The position numbers and the translations under genes were made by a program. Below the pieces are notes generated by a model, which did no database searches, was not told the DNA's origin, and saw only the letters and a list, made by a program, of their open reading frames with translations. This document shows positions 36,017 through 41,443 of a stretch of 54,102 nt of DNA, in pieces. This DNA is from Pseudoxanthomonas mexicana. GTDB lineage: Bacteria; Pseudomonadota; Gammaproteobacteria; Xanthomonadales; Xanthomonadaceae. Where the stretch lies: contig NZ_PDWV01000023.1 in the NCBI RefSeq assembly GCF_010093385.1, positions 1 to 54,102 on the forward strand, written 5' to 3'. The stretch's first letter is position 1. Each line of letters opens with the position of its first letter.

Positions 36017-37516
36017 ATGAACGAGCTGCAGGACCTCACCGCGCTGATCCGCGCCAACACCCCGCTGATCGTCATCGAGACCCAGGACGAGGCGCGCGTG
36101 GTCGACCTGTTCCGGCAGGCCCTGGGCCAGGTGTGGCGGGCGCTGTTCCGCTGGAGCATCACCGAGGGCCTGCGCCGGCTGGACATGGACCGCGAGGACG
36201 ACGCCGTCGGCCCGCCCGACGCCAGTGCCGCCCTGCAGGCCATCAAGCAGGCCGAGCAGCGCGGCATCTACCTGCTGCTGGATTTCCACCCTTACCTGGG
36301 CTACGCCAGCAGCCAGCGCCAGCTGCGCGACATCCTGCAACGCCGGCACAGCCTGCCGCACGTGGTAGTGCTGGTGGGCGCGAAGATCGAACTGCCGGCC
36401 GAACTGGACGCGCTGGCGGTGCGTTTCAGCCCGCGCCTGCCCGACGGCAATGCCCTGTTGAAGATGGTCCGCGAGGAAGCCGAGCACTACGCCCGCGAGC
36501 ACGGCGGCCGGCGCGTCGAGGCCGATGGCGAGGCGGTGAAGCAGATCGTGCGCAACCTGCAGGGCCTGAGCCTGGTGGACGCACGCCGCATCGCGCGGCA
36601 GCTGATCTTCGCCGACGGCGCCCTGACCGCCAGCGACCTGCCCGCGCTGAACAAACTGAAGTTCGAGCTGCTCAACCGCAGCGGGCATCTGCACTACGAG
36701 TACGACACGGCGAAGTTCGCCGACGTGGCCGGTGCGTCGCGGCTGAAGCGCTGGATCGAACAGCGGCGTGCGGTGTTCGTGTCCGGCAATCCGCCACCGG
36801 GGCTGGACCTGCCCAAGGGCGTGCTGCTGCTGGGCGTGCAGGGCTGCGGCAAGTCGATGCTGGCCAAGGCCACGGCCGCCGGCTTCGGCGTGCCGCTGCT
36901 GCGGCTGGATTTCGGCACGCTGTACGACAAGTACCACGGCGAGACCGAGAAGAACCTGCGCGCGGCGCTGGCCTCGGCCGAGCAACTGGCGCCCTGCGTG
37001 CTGTGGATCGACGAGATCGAGAAGGGCCTGGCCAGCGGCGGCGACGAGGATGGCGGCGTGTCGCGCCGCGTACTCGGCTACCTGCTCACGTGGATGGCCG
37101 AGCGCAAGGCCGGCGCGGGCAGCGGGCAAGTCTTCCTGGTCGCCACCGCCAACCAGGTGCAGGACCTGCCGCCGGAGCTGCTGCGCAAGGGCCGTTTCGA
37201 CGAGATCTTCTTCGTCGACCTGCCTTCGCCCGAGGCGCGCGTGGAGGTGCTGCGCGTGCACCTGGCACGCCGGCATCTGGATCCGGACGCCTTCAACCTG
37301 CCCGCACTCGCCGCCGCGGCCAACGGTTTCTCCGGCGCCGAGCTGGAGCAGGCCATCGTCTCGGCGCTGTACGCCGCGCATGCCGAGCAGAAACCGCTCG
37401 ACACCGACCTCGTTATGCACGAGATCCGCAGCACCCGCCCGCTGTCGGTCCTGATGGGCGAACAGGTGCAGGCGCTGCGCGACTGGGCGCGGGAGCGGAC
37501 GGTGCCGGCGGGTTGA
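36017..37516 (+). CDS. AAA+ ATPase, Ycf46/FtsH-like single-domain type
   Basis: 499 residues. The N-terminal half (1-240) begins ELQDLTALIRANTPLIVIET and includes an inactive nucleotide-binding-like segment. The AAA+ domain follows: Walker A LLGVQGCGKSMLAKATA (about 272-288), Walker B CVLWIDEIEKGL, sensor 1 FLVATANQVQ, Arg fingers in RKGRFDEIFFVDLP and the C-terminal lid. The N-terminus and layout match the Ycf46 family of cyanobacteria and proteobacteria, whose function is unclear. No protease or membrane domain. It stands alone, divergent from the ParA-like gene and followed by REP elements. Confidence 0.88.
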   Translation: MNELQDLTALIRANTPLIVIETQDEARVVDLFRQALGQVWRALFRWSITEGLRRLDMDREDDAVGPPDASAALQAIKQAEQRGIYLLLDFHPYLGYASSQRQLRDILQRRHSLPHVVVLVGAKIELPAELDALAVRFSPRLPDGNALLKMVREEAEHYAREHGGRRVEADGEAVKQIVRNLQGLSLVDARRIARQLIFADGALTASDLPALNKLKFELLNRSGHLHYEYDTAKFADVAGASRLKRWIEQRRAVFVSGNPPPGLDLPKGVLLLGVQGCGKSMLAKATAAGFGVPLLRLDFGTLYDKYHGETEKNLRAALASAEQLAPCVLWIDEIEKGLASGGDEDGGVSRRVLGYLLTWMAERKAGAGSGQVFLVATANQVQDLPPELLRKGRFDEIFFVDLPSPEARVEVLRVHLARRHLDPDAFNLPALAAAANGFSGAELEQAIVSALYAAHAEQKPLDTDLVMHEIRSTRPLSVLMGEQVQALRDWARERTVPAG

Positions 37517-37643: not shown

Positions 37644-37786
37644 GTACGGTGGGTTGAGTCGCAGCCCCATCGCATGTCAATTGGAAGCGCGGTGCGATTG
37701 ACGTTCCGACACCGGATTCTTTGCATAAAGCCCCCGACGAGGGCGCTAACGATGATGGGTATCGCCTGCGGCTCAACCCATCCTAC
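37644..37786. repeat. REP pair, GTAGGATGGGT family, first copy
   Basis: A degenerate plus-strand unit (37644-37671, GTACGGTGGGTTGAG...) faces a well-preserved inverted unit (37754-37786; minus strand GTAGGATGGGTTGAGCC... ending GATACCCATC). The spacer is about 80 bases. The better arm ends a few bases before the stop codon of the minus-strand gene at 37791. Confidence 0.7.
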
Positions 37787-37790
37787 GGGC

Positions 37791-38507
37791 TCAATCGGCG
37801 AGTTCGCGCGTGTCCGATTCCAGTTCGGCGATCCACCTTGAAACGTCCGCATGCAAGGCGGTGGCGTTGCGTGCATCTTCTTTGCTCAACGAATCCAGCG
37901 CATTCACCAGACCGACGATCTTGTGTGCGCGTGTGCCGGGCGCGGGCGACCAGGCGAATGCGCATTTATCGTCGTACCGCAGGATGTACGTGATCCCATC
38001 AAGCCCCATCGATCCGGCAGCATCCGCATGATCTATTTCCGCTTTCAGCGTCTCCAGTGCGCGCGCTCCGAGTGCTTGCGGCAGGACGACGGGCGGGAAC
38101 GTCTTGTACGTGGGTGCTAGCGGCTCAATAGCCTGATTCACTTCGGCACGCCCAGGTGGCGGAGGAGGTGGCGGCAGGTAACCGGCGGCAGAGACCCCCG
38201 CATGGCCCGACAAGGATGCATGGGAAAGCCGGAATCCCTCCGGCGCAGCGAACTCCGGGAATACGTCTACCCCGATTTCACCGGGCCTGAGTGCAAGCTC
38301 CTTGATACCGGTTGAATCGACCTTCCCGGGGCACGGTTCAAGGCGCGCCCGATACAGCGCCACCCTTTCAGCCTGGATCGCATCAAGACGCTCTCGCCTG
38401 TCTTCCCAGCGCTCCAGTGCGACTGGGACGACTACAGCGGCGCACAACATGAGCGCCAAAGGCGCCACCATCAGCAGAATGCGTTTTGCGTGGATGCCTG
38501 CTTTCAT
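37791..38507 (-). CDS. Unknown membrane-anchored protein
   Basis: 238 residues. A basic N-terminus and one membrane segment (about 10-30, LLMVAPLALMLCAAVVVPVA) are followed by a short coiled-coil-like helix (ERWEDRRERLDAIQAERVAL) and a periplasmic domain with a run of eight prolines (about 112-119). Two Cys are present in that domain (EPCPGK and DDKCAFAW). I do not recognise a family. GGGGAGGGG precedes the ATG at 38507. It is bracketed by two REP pairs. Confidence 0.68.
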   Translation of the reverse strand: MKAGIHAKRILLMVAPLALMLCAAVVVPVALERWEDRRERLDAIQAERVALYRARLEPCPGKVDSTGIKELALRPGEIGVDVFPEFAAPEGFRLSHASLSGHAGVSAAGYLPPPPPPPGRAEVNQAIEPLAPTYKTFPPVVLPQALGARALETLKAEIDHADAAGSMGLDGITYILRYDDKCAFAWSPAPGTRAHKIVGLVNALDSLSKEDARNATALHADVSRWIAELESDTRELAD

Positions 38508-38831
38508 TCGTGCCCCTCCCCGTCCCCATCCTCAGTCTAACGCGATGCTCTGAAAGGATATGGCGTTCTCCGCGAGGCAAGCAGAGCAACTGGACCCGAC
38601 CACAGCGGCGCGGGACGACTGAAGCGGCGCATTCGCCGACGAATCCGTACGGTTGAGCCGAAGGCGATACCCATCACGTGCAATCCGGAAAGCCCAGCGC
38701 GAACGAGCTATCGAGCGTGCGGCCGCTGCAGTATGCCTTCCTGCGAATGGTGCGGGTGATGGGTATCGCCTTCGGCTCGACCCATCCTACTCGCTAAGAA
38801 GTAAGGGGACGAGTCTCCGAGAACGAGCAAC
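38508..38831. other. Intergenic region with REP elements
   Basis: No gene is visible in these 324 bases. They hold the second GTAGGATGGGT-family REP pair (38647-38790). The right end marks the start of the lower-GC stretch. Confidence 0.6.
38647..38790. repeat. REP pair, GTAGGATGGGT family, second copy
   Basis: A plus-strand unit (38647-38675, ...GAGCCGAAGGCGATACCCATC) faces an inverted unit (38758-38790; minus strand GTAGGATGGGTCGAGCC...). The shared core GAGCCGAAGGCGATACCCAT is identical between the arms. Spacer about 80 bases, as in the first copy. Confidence 0.75.
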
Positions 38832-39194
38832 CTATGACGTTCCATCGATCAGGATGCCGCCGAATAGCCAAGACCCTACTACACCGGTCAGAGTAATCAG
38901 ATGCAGGATGGATAGCCCTGTGCTCCGCAACGCCACAACAGAAGGAGCCAACAGCAACAGAGGCACGGCCGAAGCCACTGCATGTAACCACAGGATAGAG
39001 TCAGAAGCGGGTGGCCGAGACCAATGCGATGCCAGAACGGTAGCGATGTAAACAACTGCGCCAAGCAAGCCAGGTGATGCTGCGATGAGCTTACGATCTT
39101 GGCGGGCACCGTGTAGCAAGAAGGGCACGGGCAACAGAAGGGGCAAGAGGGGCAGAAGCCCAAATGCCAAGCCAGAAATGGCATTGAGACTCAT
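38832..39194 (-). CDS. Small four-helix membrane protein, unknown
   Basis: 120 residues with about four hydrophobic segments (ISGLAFGLLPLLPLLLPVPF, AVVYIATVLASHW, AVASAVPLLLLAPSVV, LHLITLTGVVGSWLFGGILI). No family recognised. No ribosome binding site is visible before the ATG at 39194, which lies only 15 bases beyond the presumed edge of the attC-like site of the next gene. Base composition is below the window average. It could be a second cassette gene or a native gene at the insertion point. Confidence 0.55.
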   Translation of the reverse strand: MSLNAISGLAFGLLPLLPLLLPVPFLLHGARQDRKLIAASPGLLGAVVYIATVLASHWSRPPASDSILWLHAVASAVPLLLLAPSVVALRSTGLSILHLITLTGVVGSWLFGGILIDGTS

Positions 39195-39208
39195 GGATGT
39201 ATCACTGC

Positions 39209-39276
39209 TCCCGACGCCTTATGCCTTCCGATGATCCGTGCCGCGAAGCGAGTTCGGCTTGACTGAATTGTTAAGC
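39209..39276 (-). repeat. attC-like integron recombination site (partly degraded)
   Basis: On the minus strand it starts with GCTTAAC, an inverse core site of the form RYYYAAC, which contains the TAA stop of the AbiTii-like gene. AATTCAGTCAAGCCG and a CGCTTCGCGG hairpin tip follow, as in many attC sites. The other half is eroded and ends GGCGTCGGGA where GGCGTTRRRY would be expected. Confidence 0.62.
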
Positions 39277-40302
39277 TGCAGGCCTAGCAAGCTTGAGAAG
39301 ATCCGCAACGAGCATGTAGGTGTATACGACATAGCGATCTGCCTCATCGCGTATTGATATGGTCGCGTGCGAACCCTTTTGAGCTGCCCTGAACAGCGAG
39401 TCTAGGCGATCACCCAAGTACGCTAGTTGAGAGCCAATAATTTCTTCTGATCGCCCTGAGGTGGAATTGTCCTCTGTGAAGCAGACTAGGCGGTTGATGT
39501 AGTTGTCTGCTCCAAGAGCGATACGAACGTCCCTGCCATTAACCGACTTGACGCGCGGCGTATCAGTGGCCGGGAATAGGTGGTCTGCCAAATCCTGCAG
39601 GATCCTCCGGCAGCTATGGACAGCATTAGACCAATCCTCTGGGTTGTCGGATTGCAAGTTCTCATAAATGGCGACAAACTTTTGAGCGGCAGACGGGACT
39701 GTAAGGCCAATAAGCTCATCTGCTGCTAAGCGAATTCTAGAAAATGCGTCTCCTGCTATGCCGGAGAACTTCAACTCTAGATTCTTTTGAAGCACATATG
39801 CGTAGATGAATGATCTGCGTGAGCTTAGCTTTGCAGAGGACTCCCTAATCGACTGGTGCAATCTGCTTCGTTCGACCCAGTTGCCGTGCCCGGAGCCTAC
39901 GTACTGATTGGGGTTGGCGGAAGAGATCGAAACATTCGGATCCCTGGCTGCGTCGATTCCTAGTTTTGAAGCCTCCAACGAGGCCTCAAGCTGTTCAATT
40001 GATTCAGTTCTCGCGTAGGTCTTGACCTCTTCCTTGTCTTTCTTTTGGTAGGTCCTTCCTGCGAGCGTTGCAAGGCGCCACACCTCTGGGGATACGCCAG
40101 TAGCAGAATATGGGTATCCGCCGCTCTCGTACTCGAAAATCTTCTGATGGTCGAAGTCGTTCAGGAGCCTCGCGAGACGAGAAGCCATCAAAGCGATGTT
40201 GGTAAGTGGGGCCTGCGATAGCTCGATCGCCCGGAGCAGATCCTCTGACAAGCCAAGGGCTTCAGCTAGCGCCTTAGCGGATGGCTTCACTTCGGGTTCC
40301 AC
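39271..40302 (-). CDS. AbiTii-like protein, candidate anti-phage gene in an integron cassette
   Basis: 343 residues from a GTG at 40302, chosen because AGGAGA lies 9-10 bases before it; the open frame to 40473 has no such site. Residues about 10-190 resemble the AbiTii domain: SQAPLTNIALMASRLARLLN followed by FEYESGGYP. The C-terminal half (about 195-343) contains a helical segment NPEDWSNAVHSCRRILQDLA and then YINRLVCFTEDN. I do not know an activity for it and no HEPN RxxxxH or nuclease motif is evident. The stop codon lies inside an attC-like core and a GTTAGGC core stands 17 bases before the start, as in gene cassettes. Composition is AT-rich relative to its neighbours. The AbiTii assignment is from pattern memory and needs a profile search. 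Confidence 0.7.
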   Translation of the reverse strand: MEPEVKPSAKALAEALGLSEDLLRAIELSQAPLTNIALMASRLARLLNDFDHQKIFEYESGGYPYSATGVSPEVWRLATLAGRTYQKKDKEEVKTYARTESIEQLEASLEASKLGIDAARDPNVSISSANPNQYVGSGHGNWVERSRLHQSIRESSAKLSSRRSFIYAYVLQKNLELKFSGIAGDAFSRIRLAADELIGLTVPSAAQKFVAIYENLQSDNPEDWSNAVHSCRRILQDLADHLFPATDTPRVKSVNGRDVRIALGADNYINRLVCFTEDNSTSGRSEEIIGSQLAYLGDRLDSLFRAAQKGSHATISIRDEADRYVVYTYMLVADLLKLARPAA

Positions 40303-40319
40303 TAGATGTGTCTCCTGCA

Positions 40320-40326
40320 GCCTAAC
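40320..40326 (-). promoter_or_regulatory. Integron core site (GTTRRRY) before the AbiTii-like gene
   Basis: The minus strand reads GGGGCGTTAGGC, with GTTAGGC fitting the core consensus. It is 17 bases upstream of the GTG start and is followed directly by the ribosome site. No second attC arm is found further upstream. Confidence 0.5.
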
Positions 40327-40504
40327 GCCCCATCCCCGGGGGACGACATGGATGTTCACGTTCCACCCAGCGCGCGTCAAGGCAGACGGTACATGTCTGC
40401 ATAGGGGTCGTGGGAACATGCCAGGACGCAGGGTGCGCAAGCGCCAGCTGCGTGGTTCGCTCGTGAACATCACCCGCTAACCCGGGGTGCCAGCTCCTTC
40501 TTTC

Positions 40505-41443
40505 TTAGATCGCTATCGTCCCTCTATTAAGCCGACTTAAGAAGGACACGGACCCGTTGGCGTGATCTGGGGTCGCAACCGCCCATCGGCAGAGATCGAC
40601 GCAATCCCCCTCCCCAATCTCCACCGCAGTCCCACTCACCCTTACCCCCTCGCTTACATCCACCGGCACGTCCACCCGCAACACACTCGGTCGCCCGAGG
40701 TCGTGTCCCTGGTGGATGGTGAACCTGCGGTCGTCAGGCAGCCGGTCCTGCGCCGCCAGATACGCACCCAACGCCGCGGCCGCGGCGCCAGTGGCCGGAT
40801 CTTCCACCACGCCGCCGGGTGGGAACGGATTGCGCGCGTGCAGCGTGTGCGCGTCTTCGCGCCGCACCAGATTGATCGTGGTCCAGCCGCGCGATGCCAT
40901 CAGCGCGGCCAGTGCATCGAAGTCGTAGTGCAGATCGGCCAACCGCGCGCGCGTGGCGACGGCGATGACCGGATGCCACGCACCGGCATACGCGACCGCG
41001 GGCGGAAGCACGGGGTCGAGTTCGTCGCGATGCCAGCGCAACGTGCCCAGCACGCCATCCAGATCAGCGGCATCCAATGCGTCCACGAGCGGCGGCACGC
41101 TGGTCAGGGTGGCGAACAAACCGGCATCGACCGTCACGCGCACGCGCCCCGCCTGCGTGTGCAGCACGAAGTCGCCCGGACCCTGCCGGCGGGCGTGCGC
41201 GACCATCGCCGCGATCGTCGCGTGGCCGCAGAAGCTGACTTCGGCCAGCGGGCTGAAGTAGCGCACCTCGAGCTCGCCATCCGCGCGTGGCAGCAGGAAC
41301 GCGGTTTCCGAATAGCCCACGTCCGCGGCGATGCGCTGCATGGCGTTGTCGGACAGACCGCGCGCATCCAGCACCGCGCCGGCGGGATTGCCGCCGCTCG
41401 GGTCGGTCGTGAAGGCGCTGTAGCGCAGGACCGCGGACGTCAT
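40505..41443 (-). CDS. PhzF family isomerase-like protein
   Basis: 312 residues. Family marks are FTTDPSGGNPAGAVL near the N-terminus, the catalytic Glu in VGYSETAFLL, FCGHATIAAM, and VVEDPATGAAAAALGAYL with the second-domain Asp. Relatives include phenazine isomerase PhzF and many uncharacterised epimerase-like proteins; the substrate is unknown. The normal domain seems to end near SGTAVEIGEG; the last 30 or so residues (CRWAVATPDHANGSVSF...) lie in AT-richer DNA and look like an unrelated extension. It overlaps yczE by four bases (ATGA). Confidence 0.88.
   Translation of the reverse strand: MTSAVLRYSAFTTDPSGGNPAGAVLDARGLSDNAMQRIAADVGYSETAFLLPRADGELEVRYFSPLAEVSFCGHATIAAMVAHARRQGPGDFVLHTQAGRVRVTVDAGLFATLTSVPPLVDALDAADLDGVLGTLRWHRDELDPVLPPAVAYAGAWHPVIAVATRARLADLHYDFDALAALMASRGWTTINLVRREDAHTLHARNPFPPGGVVEDPATGAAAAALGAYLAAQDRLPDDRRFTIHQGHDLGRPSVLRVDVPVDVSEGVRVSGTAVEIGEGDCVDLCRWAVATPDHANGSVSFLSRLNRGTIAI

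Follow-up and report, generated by a model that had tools for sequence, protein, structure and literature searches.

An AbiTii gene of integron cassette origin beside a putative decayed attI in Pseudoxanthomonas mexicana

On contig NZ_PDWV01000023.1 of Pseudoxanthomonas mexicana, a stretch of 54,102 nucleotides (positions 1 to 54,102; hereafter the window) carries a gene for a 343-residue protein of the AbiTii family, which is an integron gene cassette by origin. Very probably, this cassette was captured at an orphan attI (i.e., one with no full-length gene for the integron-integrase, intI, beside it) endowed with its own cassette promoter (Pc), in the interval between a phzF gene and an AAA ATPase gene; both recombination sites later decayed, and the cassette is now probably fixed. 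Unless stated otherwise, all features of the window lie on the minus strand.

The AbiTii cassette and its attC

An earlier note on this DNA, made from the sequence alone, had pointed to a GTTAGGC core, a ribosome site, a GTG start, a GCTTAAC at the stop codon and an AT-rich gene, all of which are present. The gene (39271..40302, stop codon included) starts with GTG at 40302, 17 nucleotides from the GTTAGGC core, with the ribosome site AGGAG at 40312..40316, and its GC content is 52.5%, versus 69.5% for the two upstream genes. Using 27 attC taken from the own genome, we built a covariance model (R2) and searched the window with filters off. It places an attC exactly at the stop of the gene, at 39216..39276 (24.0 bits, E = 3.6e-4), as the sole significant match in 54 kb, the next best scoring 11.9 bits (E = 1.6). 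The stop codon (39271-39273) overlaps the GCTTAAC (39270-39276), which is followed by AATTCA, GTCAAGCCG and CGCTTCGCG. This is one gene whose attC begins within its last codons, which is the layout of a gene cassette and bears out the earlier view of the gene as a cassette with an attC. With one attC in 54 kb and no intI match in the window, as the earlier note had stated, the locus falls into the class of clusters or single attC lacking an integron-integrase (CALIN/SALIN), as defined in the available text of PMC12444791, PMC9024848 and PMC12690207.

The site previously described as half an attC is in fact an attC along its whole length, R2 aligning over all 60 model positions at 39276-39216, with a canonical 5' half and a mutated 3' half. 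At the downstream junction the core has ATA instead of the expected GTT, and the bottom strand has no fold (−3.8 kcal/mol, z +0.9), whereas in the own genome an intact attC reaches −15.4 kcal/mol (z −4.8) and the 27 attC span −7.7 to −25.5. Nor is a complete attC rebuilt when the GTTAGGC of the left end is joined to the GGCG of the right, as had been proposed: the attC found by the model stops at 39216, short of that G, and the joined sequence does not fold (−4.0 kcal/mol, z +1.2). Because both recombination sites, this attC and the attI core described below, have decayed, the cassette is probably immobilised. The idea of a mobile cassette therefore survives for its origin and probably not for its present state.

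Directly after the attC begins a second cassette-like gene of 120 residues (38832..39194; GC 56%), which speaks against a single cassette. Only 13 homologues at E ≤ 0.01 were found for it among 332 candidates and, among the matches listed, no DNA match in the genus covers it; this scarcity fits a second cassette body. No attC follows it in the R2 search of the window. An empty site, sought by the earlier note, did not turn up: among the matches listed, with eight candidates scored per genome, none in the genus covers 38796-39205, and the relatives that have the attI carry other sequence at that place.

The protein belongs to the AbiTii family, as had been suggested. PF18864 matches residues 18-172 (39787..40251; E = 9e-10) with 39.5 bits against the Pfam gathering cut-off of 27.6, and a PADLOC search places the protein in the same family (E = 2.5e-14). 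The C-terminal half (residues 196-341; 39280..39717), once thought to be possibly new, has HEPN domains as its best fold matches. Across 49 aligned sequences, K309, G310 and S311 are invariant and H312 nearly so, and no arginine is conserved at the distance before H312 that the HEPN catalytic motif Rx4-6H calls for. According to the available text of PMC3710099, AbiTii domains occur fused to HEPN domains of the c2405 family; the protein described here shares with these fusions the N-terminal AbiTii domain, a putative C-terminal HEPN-like fold and a conserved histidine without the canonical arginine, while differing in that it sits on an integron cassette; it is a candidate member of the c2405 family. 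The product is most likely an abortive-infection protein, with a predicted anti-phage activity in which the AbiTii part would sense infection and the HEPN part would harm the RNA of the infected cell or otherwise halt growth.

The left flank and the phzF-linked site in related species

The cassette starts at a G|TTAGGC core (40320..40326), the cut falling between 40326 and 40325, and homology to most relatives stops there. While this agrees with the insertion at a G|TT core put forward in the earlier note, what lies left of the cut does not look like the secondary site that the note had in mind; it looks like a decayed attI with a Pc, with counterparts in the same position in five other species. 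When 40300-40560 was compared with 38 whole genomes of the genus at the DNA level, five matches besides the own genome were obtained, four of which (genomes G208, G205, G219 and G117) lie just beyond a phzF orthologue and one (G206) elsewhere. In three of the four phzF-linked matches homology ends at 40327-40328, i.e., at the G|TT junction, and in that of G117 at 40335. A fifth phzF-linked relative, G218, was added by synteny. In the alignment of these five, the site reads TTGACGC, a spacer, GAACAT and then, further on, GGGG(T/C)CTACTGGGCG|TTAGG, with small variations, after which the sequence is different in each. In the genus, attI next to an intI follow this pattern too, GATTGACGC..GAATACT..CACCCC..GGGGTCTACTAGGTG|TTAGG.

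A profile of the five phzF-linked sites matches the window at 40325..40406 with 51.0 bits (E = 4.3e-15; next best window match E = 0.33); the alignment has two gaps, one of 9 nucleotides in the core and one of a single base elsewhere. The loss of 9 nucleotides relative to relatives falls at 40327..40328, is seen as a gap in two profile alignments and leaves the core box incomplete. Within the same region, a predicted Pc consists of a −35 box TTGACG (40375..40380), belonging to the TTGAC type that is widespread among linked and orphan attI, and, after a spacer of 17 nucleotides, a −10 box GAACAT (40352..40357).

We also built a profile (R1) from 21 intI-linked attI. In whole genomes it finds the phzF sites of G218 (E = 1.7e-8), G205 (2.3e-6), G208 (2.7e-6) and G117 (0.0028). 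Two results weigh against reading the flank as an attI: R1 missed the phzF site of G219 in the whole genome, giving E = 0.011 in its fetched stretch, and with default filters it has no match anywhere in the window. Restricted to 311 nucleotides with filters off, R1 yields a weak match at 40381-40326 (4.9 bits, E = 0.0077) that ends at the G of GTT. Homology to attI is therefore weak when measured directly in the window and strong through orthology to the phzF sites of relatives, which are themselves more decayed than most other orphan sites. Neither the window nor the phzF site in any of the five relatives showed an intI or an intI remnant. Because the phzF-site profile and the R1 matches to relatives agree, we take the window site to be a decayed orthologue of an integrase-less attI. 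Judged by sequence comparison, the left flank is thus a decayed attI with a putative Pc, orthologous to the phzF-linked site in five related species.

On its left, the site is bordered by the PhzF-family gene (40505..41398; TIGR00654, E = 8.5e-51), a neighbour conserved in synteny, whose orthologue precedes the same attI in the five relatives. The right border of the interval is the AAA ATPase gene (36017..37516, plus strand; PF00004, E = 1e-30), whose product shares 97% identity with a cluster bearing the name Pseudoxanthomonas sp. PXM01. The gene is present in 6 of the 16 fetched stretches of relatives; the rest either stop short of it or do not have it. The interval between these borders is hypervariable (stretches L023-L033): its length runs from some 0.55 kb in L029 to no less than 9.8 kb in L027, and it can carry defence-like genes and as many as two orphan attI. 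In the window it also holds a gene of unassigned function (37791..38507), common to G218 at 86% identity, and a REP-like repeat, GATGGGTATCGCC..GGCTCAACCCATCCTACG, in inverted and direct copies at 37753-37791, 38651-38682 and 38751-38795, with many matches in the genus. Rfam has no match in the window at gathering scores, and no tRNA or tmRNA that could anchor an island was found there.

Orphan attI sites and their cassettes in the genus and family

The own genome (115 contigs) contains one full-length intI, at C18:40230-41168 (474.5 bits vs a cut-off of 265), attC arrays on contigs C18, C55 and C65, and a single attC on C83. It also contains a second orphan attI, on C65 (R1, E = 2.6e-15). There (L071; G000:C65:21466-23079), the attI is followed by cassettes with an equal spacing of 367 nucleotides, similar starts and homologues in intI-linked arrays.

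Over the 38 Pseudoxanthomonas genomes, R1 finds 85 attI at E ≤ 1e-4. A full-length intI accompanies 24 of them; the other 61 have none beside them and are spread over 28 genomes. We fetched 60 stretches, which together with L071 cover all 61 orphan sites plus three weaker ones. What intI remains at these sites is a fragment at most: of the 58 stretches whose site is strong, 10 retain about 43-98 residues. With nhmmer cut-offs of at least 15 bits for orphan attI and at least 20 bits for attC, and a distance of at most 1.5 kb, 56 of 62 orphan attI have an attC downstream on the same strand, and 5 of the 62 have less than 700 nucleotides of contig left. Within this distance, 130 attC are downstream on the same strand, none downstream on the opposite strand and one upstream. 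Weaker opposite-strand covariance matches, none of which reaches 20 bits in nhmmer, share coordinates with strong attC and are mirror images due to the palindromic nature of attC. The reversed profile, used as a control, gives 0/11 matches at 15 bits or more, against 62/71 for the real one.

Assembly gaps are not the general cause, because single-contig genomes hold orphan attI as well: six of them (G117, G214, G216, G217, G218 and G225) have nine orphan and four linked attI at E ≤ 1e-4. Moreover, in 57 genus stretches at least 1.8 kb is available upstream of the attI, except in L185 (756 nucleotides), where the intI fragment stops before the contig end. The presence of stray attI in so many related genomes suggests that one integrase may serve several sites. 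Among the 150 matches listed for 198 genomes of the family, 73 are linked and 77 unlinked, a split made without regard to contig ends; the 77 come from 52 genomes in 19 genera, with an intI match elsewhere in 38 of those genomes.

Genome G220 (contigs C5 and C4; L171, L176, L183, L193, L195, L197 and L205) has nine attI at E ≤ 1e-4 with no full-length intI found, and N-terminal intI fragments adjoin the attI in three of these stretches. At G117:C1:1650311 (L097, L301), a full-length intI has attC-like sequence upstream and no recognisable attI. Two genomes possess a second, lower-scoring intI, perhaps of mobile-integron origin, at G214:C1:980090-981028 (378 bits) and G158:C18:1686-2624 (373 bits).

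Cassettes are shared between the two kinds of array. At 75% identity or more and comparable length, 31 of 256 orphan-array cassettes have a homologue among 276 cassettes of intI-linked arrays, 11 of them within the same genome. In G211, G217, G210 and G205, orphan and linked arrays of one genome share cassettes at 97.9-100% identity, the maxima being 100% over 299 bp (G211), 99.5% over 184 bp (G217) and 99.2% over 366 bp (G210). Because of this near-identity, some orphan arrays appear to be in recent traffic. First-position orphan cassettes have a homologue in a fetched linked array in 6 of 55 cases. The sharing is consistent with exchange between platforms and does not by itself prove the integrase, IntI, to be the agent.

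At the phzF site itself, G208 carries an AbiV cassette (PF18728, E = 6.2e-32) and G205 a protein with an Mrr_cat match below the cut-off (E = 9.3e-4), while a second orphan attI in the same G205 interval has a PDC-S19/DUF3644 protein. The first genes in G218 and G219 have no family match, and the 191-residue protein scanned in G117 lies after the first attC and so is not a first gene. Taken alone, this defence-type content is suggestive. In the PADLOC comparison, the first position of orphan arrays shows no enrichment in defence genes, with matches for 2 of 53 such proteins vs at most 2 of 100 linked-array proteins (the first 100 of 136 picked from 237).

AbiTii is rare in the family, being found in 2 of 198 genomes, the own one included. 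R2 detects attC around two (L235, L247) of 54 distant AbiTii loci; because this model is specific to the genus, a border test took its place there. After 7 of the 54 loci had been dropped, 47 with complete flanks were left; exactly complementary GTTnnnn/nnnnAAC borders enclose 12 of these, one of the 12, L242, being doubtful, against 2.1% in swapped-flank controls, which points to a cassette habit in the AbiTii family. Three Firmicutes homologues (L262, L265 and L269; Saccharibacillus and Paenibacillus) have exactly complementary GTTAnAT/ATnTAAC borders, which are attC-like; integrons are very rare in Firmicutes according to the available text of PMC9024848.

Capture at an orphan attI, its rivals and its relation to known systems

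The cassette would have been captured at the G|TT of an orphan attI with its own Pc, located between phzF and the AAA ATPase gene on a Pseudoxanthomonas chromosome, by an IntI acting in trans from a distance, for which the full-length intI of C18 is a candidate. Afterwards, the attI core would have lost 9 nucleotides and the attC its folding 3' half and GTT core, so that today the cassette probably sits fixed in the first position, with its transcription driven by the Pc.

A competing account has a circular cassette inserting at a random G/TT of the attG type, the conserved flank being merely the end of the phzF unit. Such insertions are documented (available text of PMC12444791 and PMC12901181), and the 7-bp core alone would suffice for one. 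We rejected this account, and consider it very unlikely, since the flank is conserved across species as a Pc and an attI consensus (phzF-site profile E = 4.3e-15) up to GGCG|TTAGG and then gives way to different sequence in five species, whereas a random site would not be reused. We find it hardly credible that the gene is an ordinary genomic-island gene whose attC-like and attI-like sequences are due to chance or convergence. Its place in a hypervariable interval near repeats and the imperfection of both sites fit that idea; the E-values of the attC (3.6e-4) and of the phzF-site profile, together with the failure of the reversed profile, do not.

More weight attaches to the possibility, which we still regard as unlikely, that phzF once neighboured a complete integron, from which intI was deleted to leave a fossil CALIN with an old attI and no activity in trans. 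The intI fragments at some orphan sites show that deletion is a real route, and the phzF sites are more decayed than most. However, the phzF site of the five relatives and the window hold no intI fragment, and orphan arrays elsewhere have nearly identical cassettes in common with the intI-linked array in their own genome. Capture at the orphan attI by an integrase acting in trans is consequently our preferred reading.

Several known systems resemble the arrangement described here, and the comparisons below go as far as the available text of the cited papers. CALIN and SALIN also have cassettes and attC away from intI, occupy conserved loci in Xanthomonas (seven, for CALINs) and, as has been proposed, can be mobilised in trans by a distant IntI (PMC12444791); they differ in that the array here is headed by an attI with a Pc. 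IntegronFinder leaves attI outside class 1 undetected (PMC9024848). The sedentary chromosomal integron shares the Pc, the attI, G|TT insertion, attC arrays and an IntI in the genome, while here the platform lacks intI and a genome may have several, as in G220. attG sites (as cited in PMC12444791 and PMC12901181) similarly accept cassettes at G/TT outside an integron but are described as diverged from attI and attC, whereas the present site is recognisable as an attI via relatives, has a Pc and is reused across species. Finally, the Delta-attI gene cassettes of mobile integrons (PMC12901181) likewise display attI pieces away from their usual place; there, the piece replaces the attC downstream of the gene, and here the attI is upstream of the array with its Pc kept. 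In searches that also took in Pseudoxanthomonas integrons, no description of attI platforms without intI was found in the titles and available text of the openly licensed literature, PMC9892861 and PMC11089894 included. As far as searched, the genus-wide set of such platforms is new.

The textbook integron has one integrase, one attI and one promoter and expresses no more than the first few cassettes of a single array, and arrays that lack an integrase are commonly regarded as relics. We tentatively propose, with slightly less than even confidence, that Pseudoxanthomonas, and probably much of its family, has a distributed integron, in which one IntI would act in trans on several attI-Pc platforms, several first-position cassettes would be expressed together, and defence genes would be parked and fixed at chosen platforms. 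If dozens of platforms are indeed served in trans, many supposed relics would be live expression slots, the capacity for cassette expression would increase several-fold, and the anti-phage genes in integrons would need to be counted anew. The AbiTii gene of the window would illustrate how a mobile defence cassette can turn into a fixed chromosomal gene through the loss of both recombination sites.
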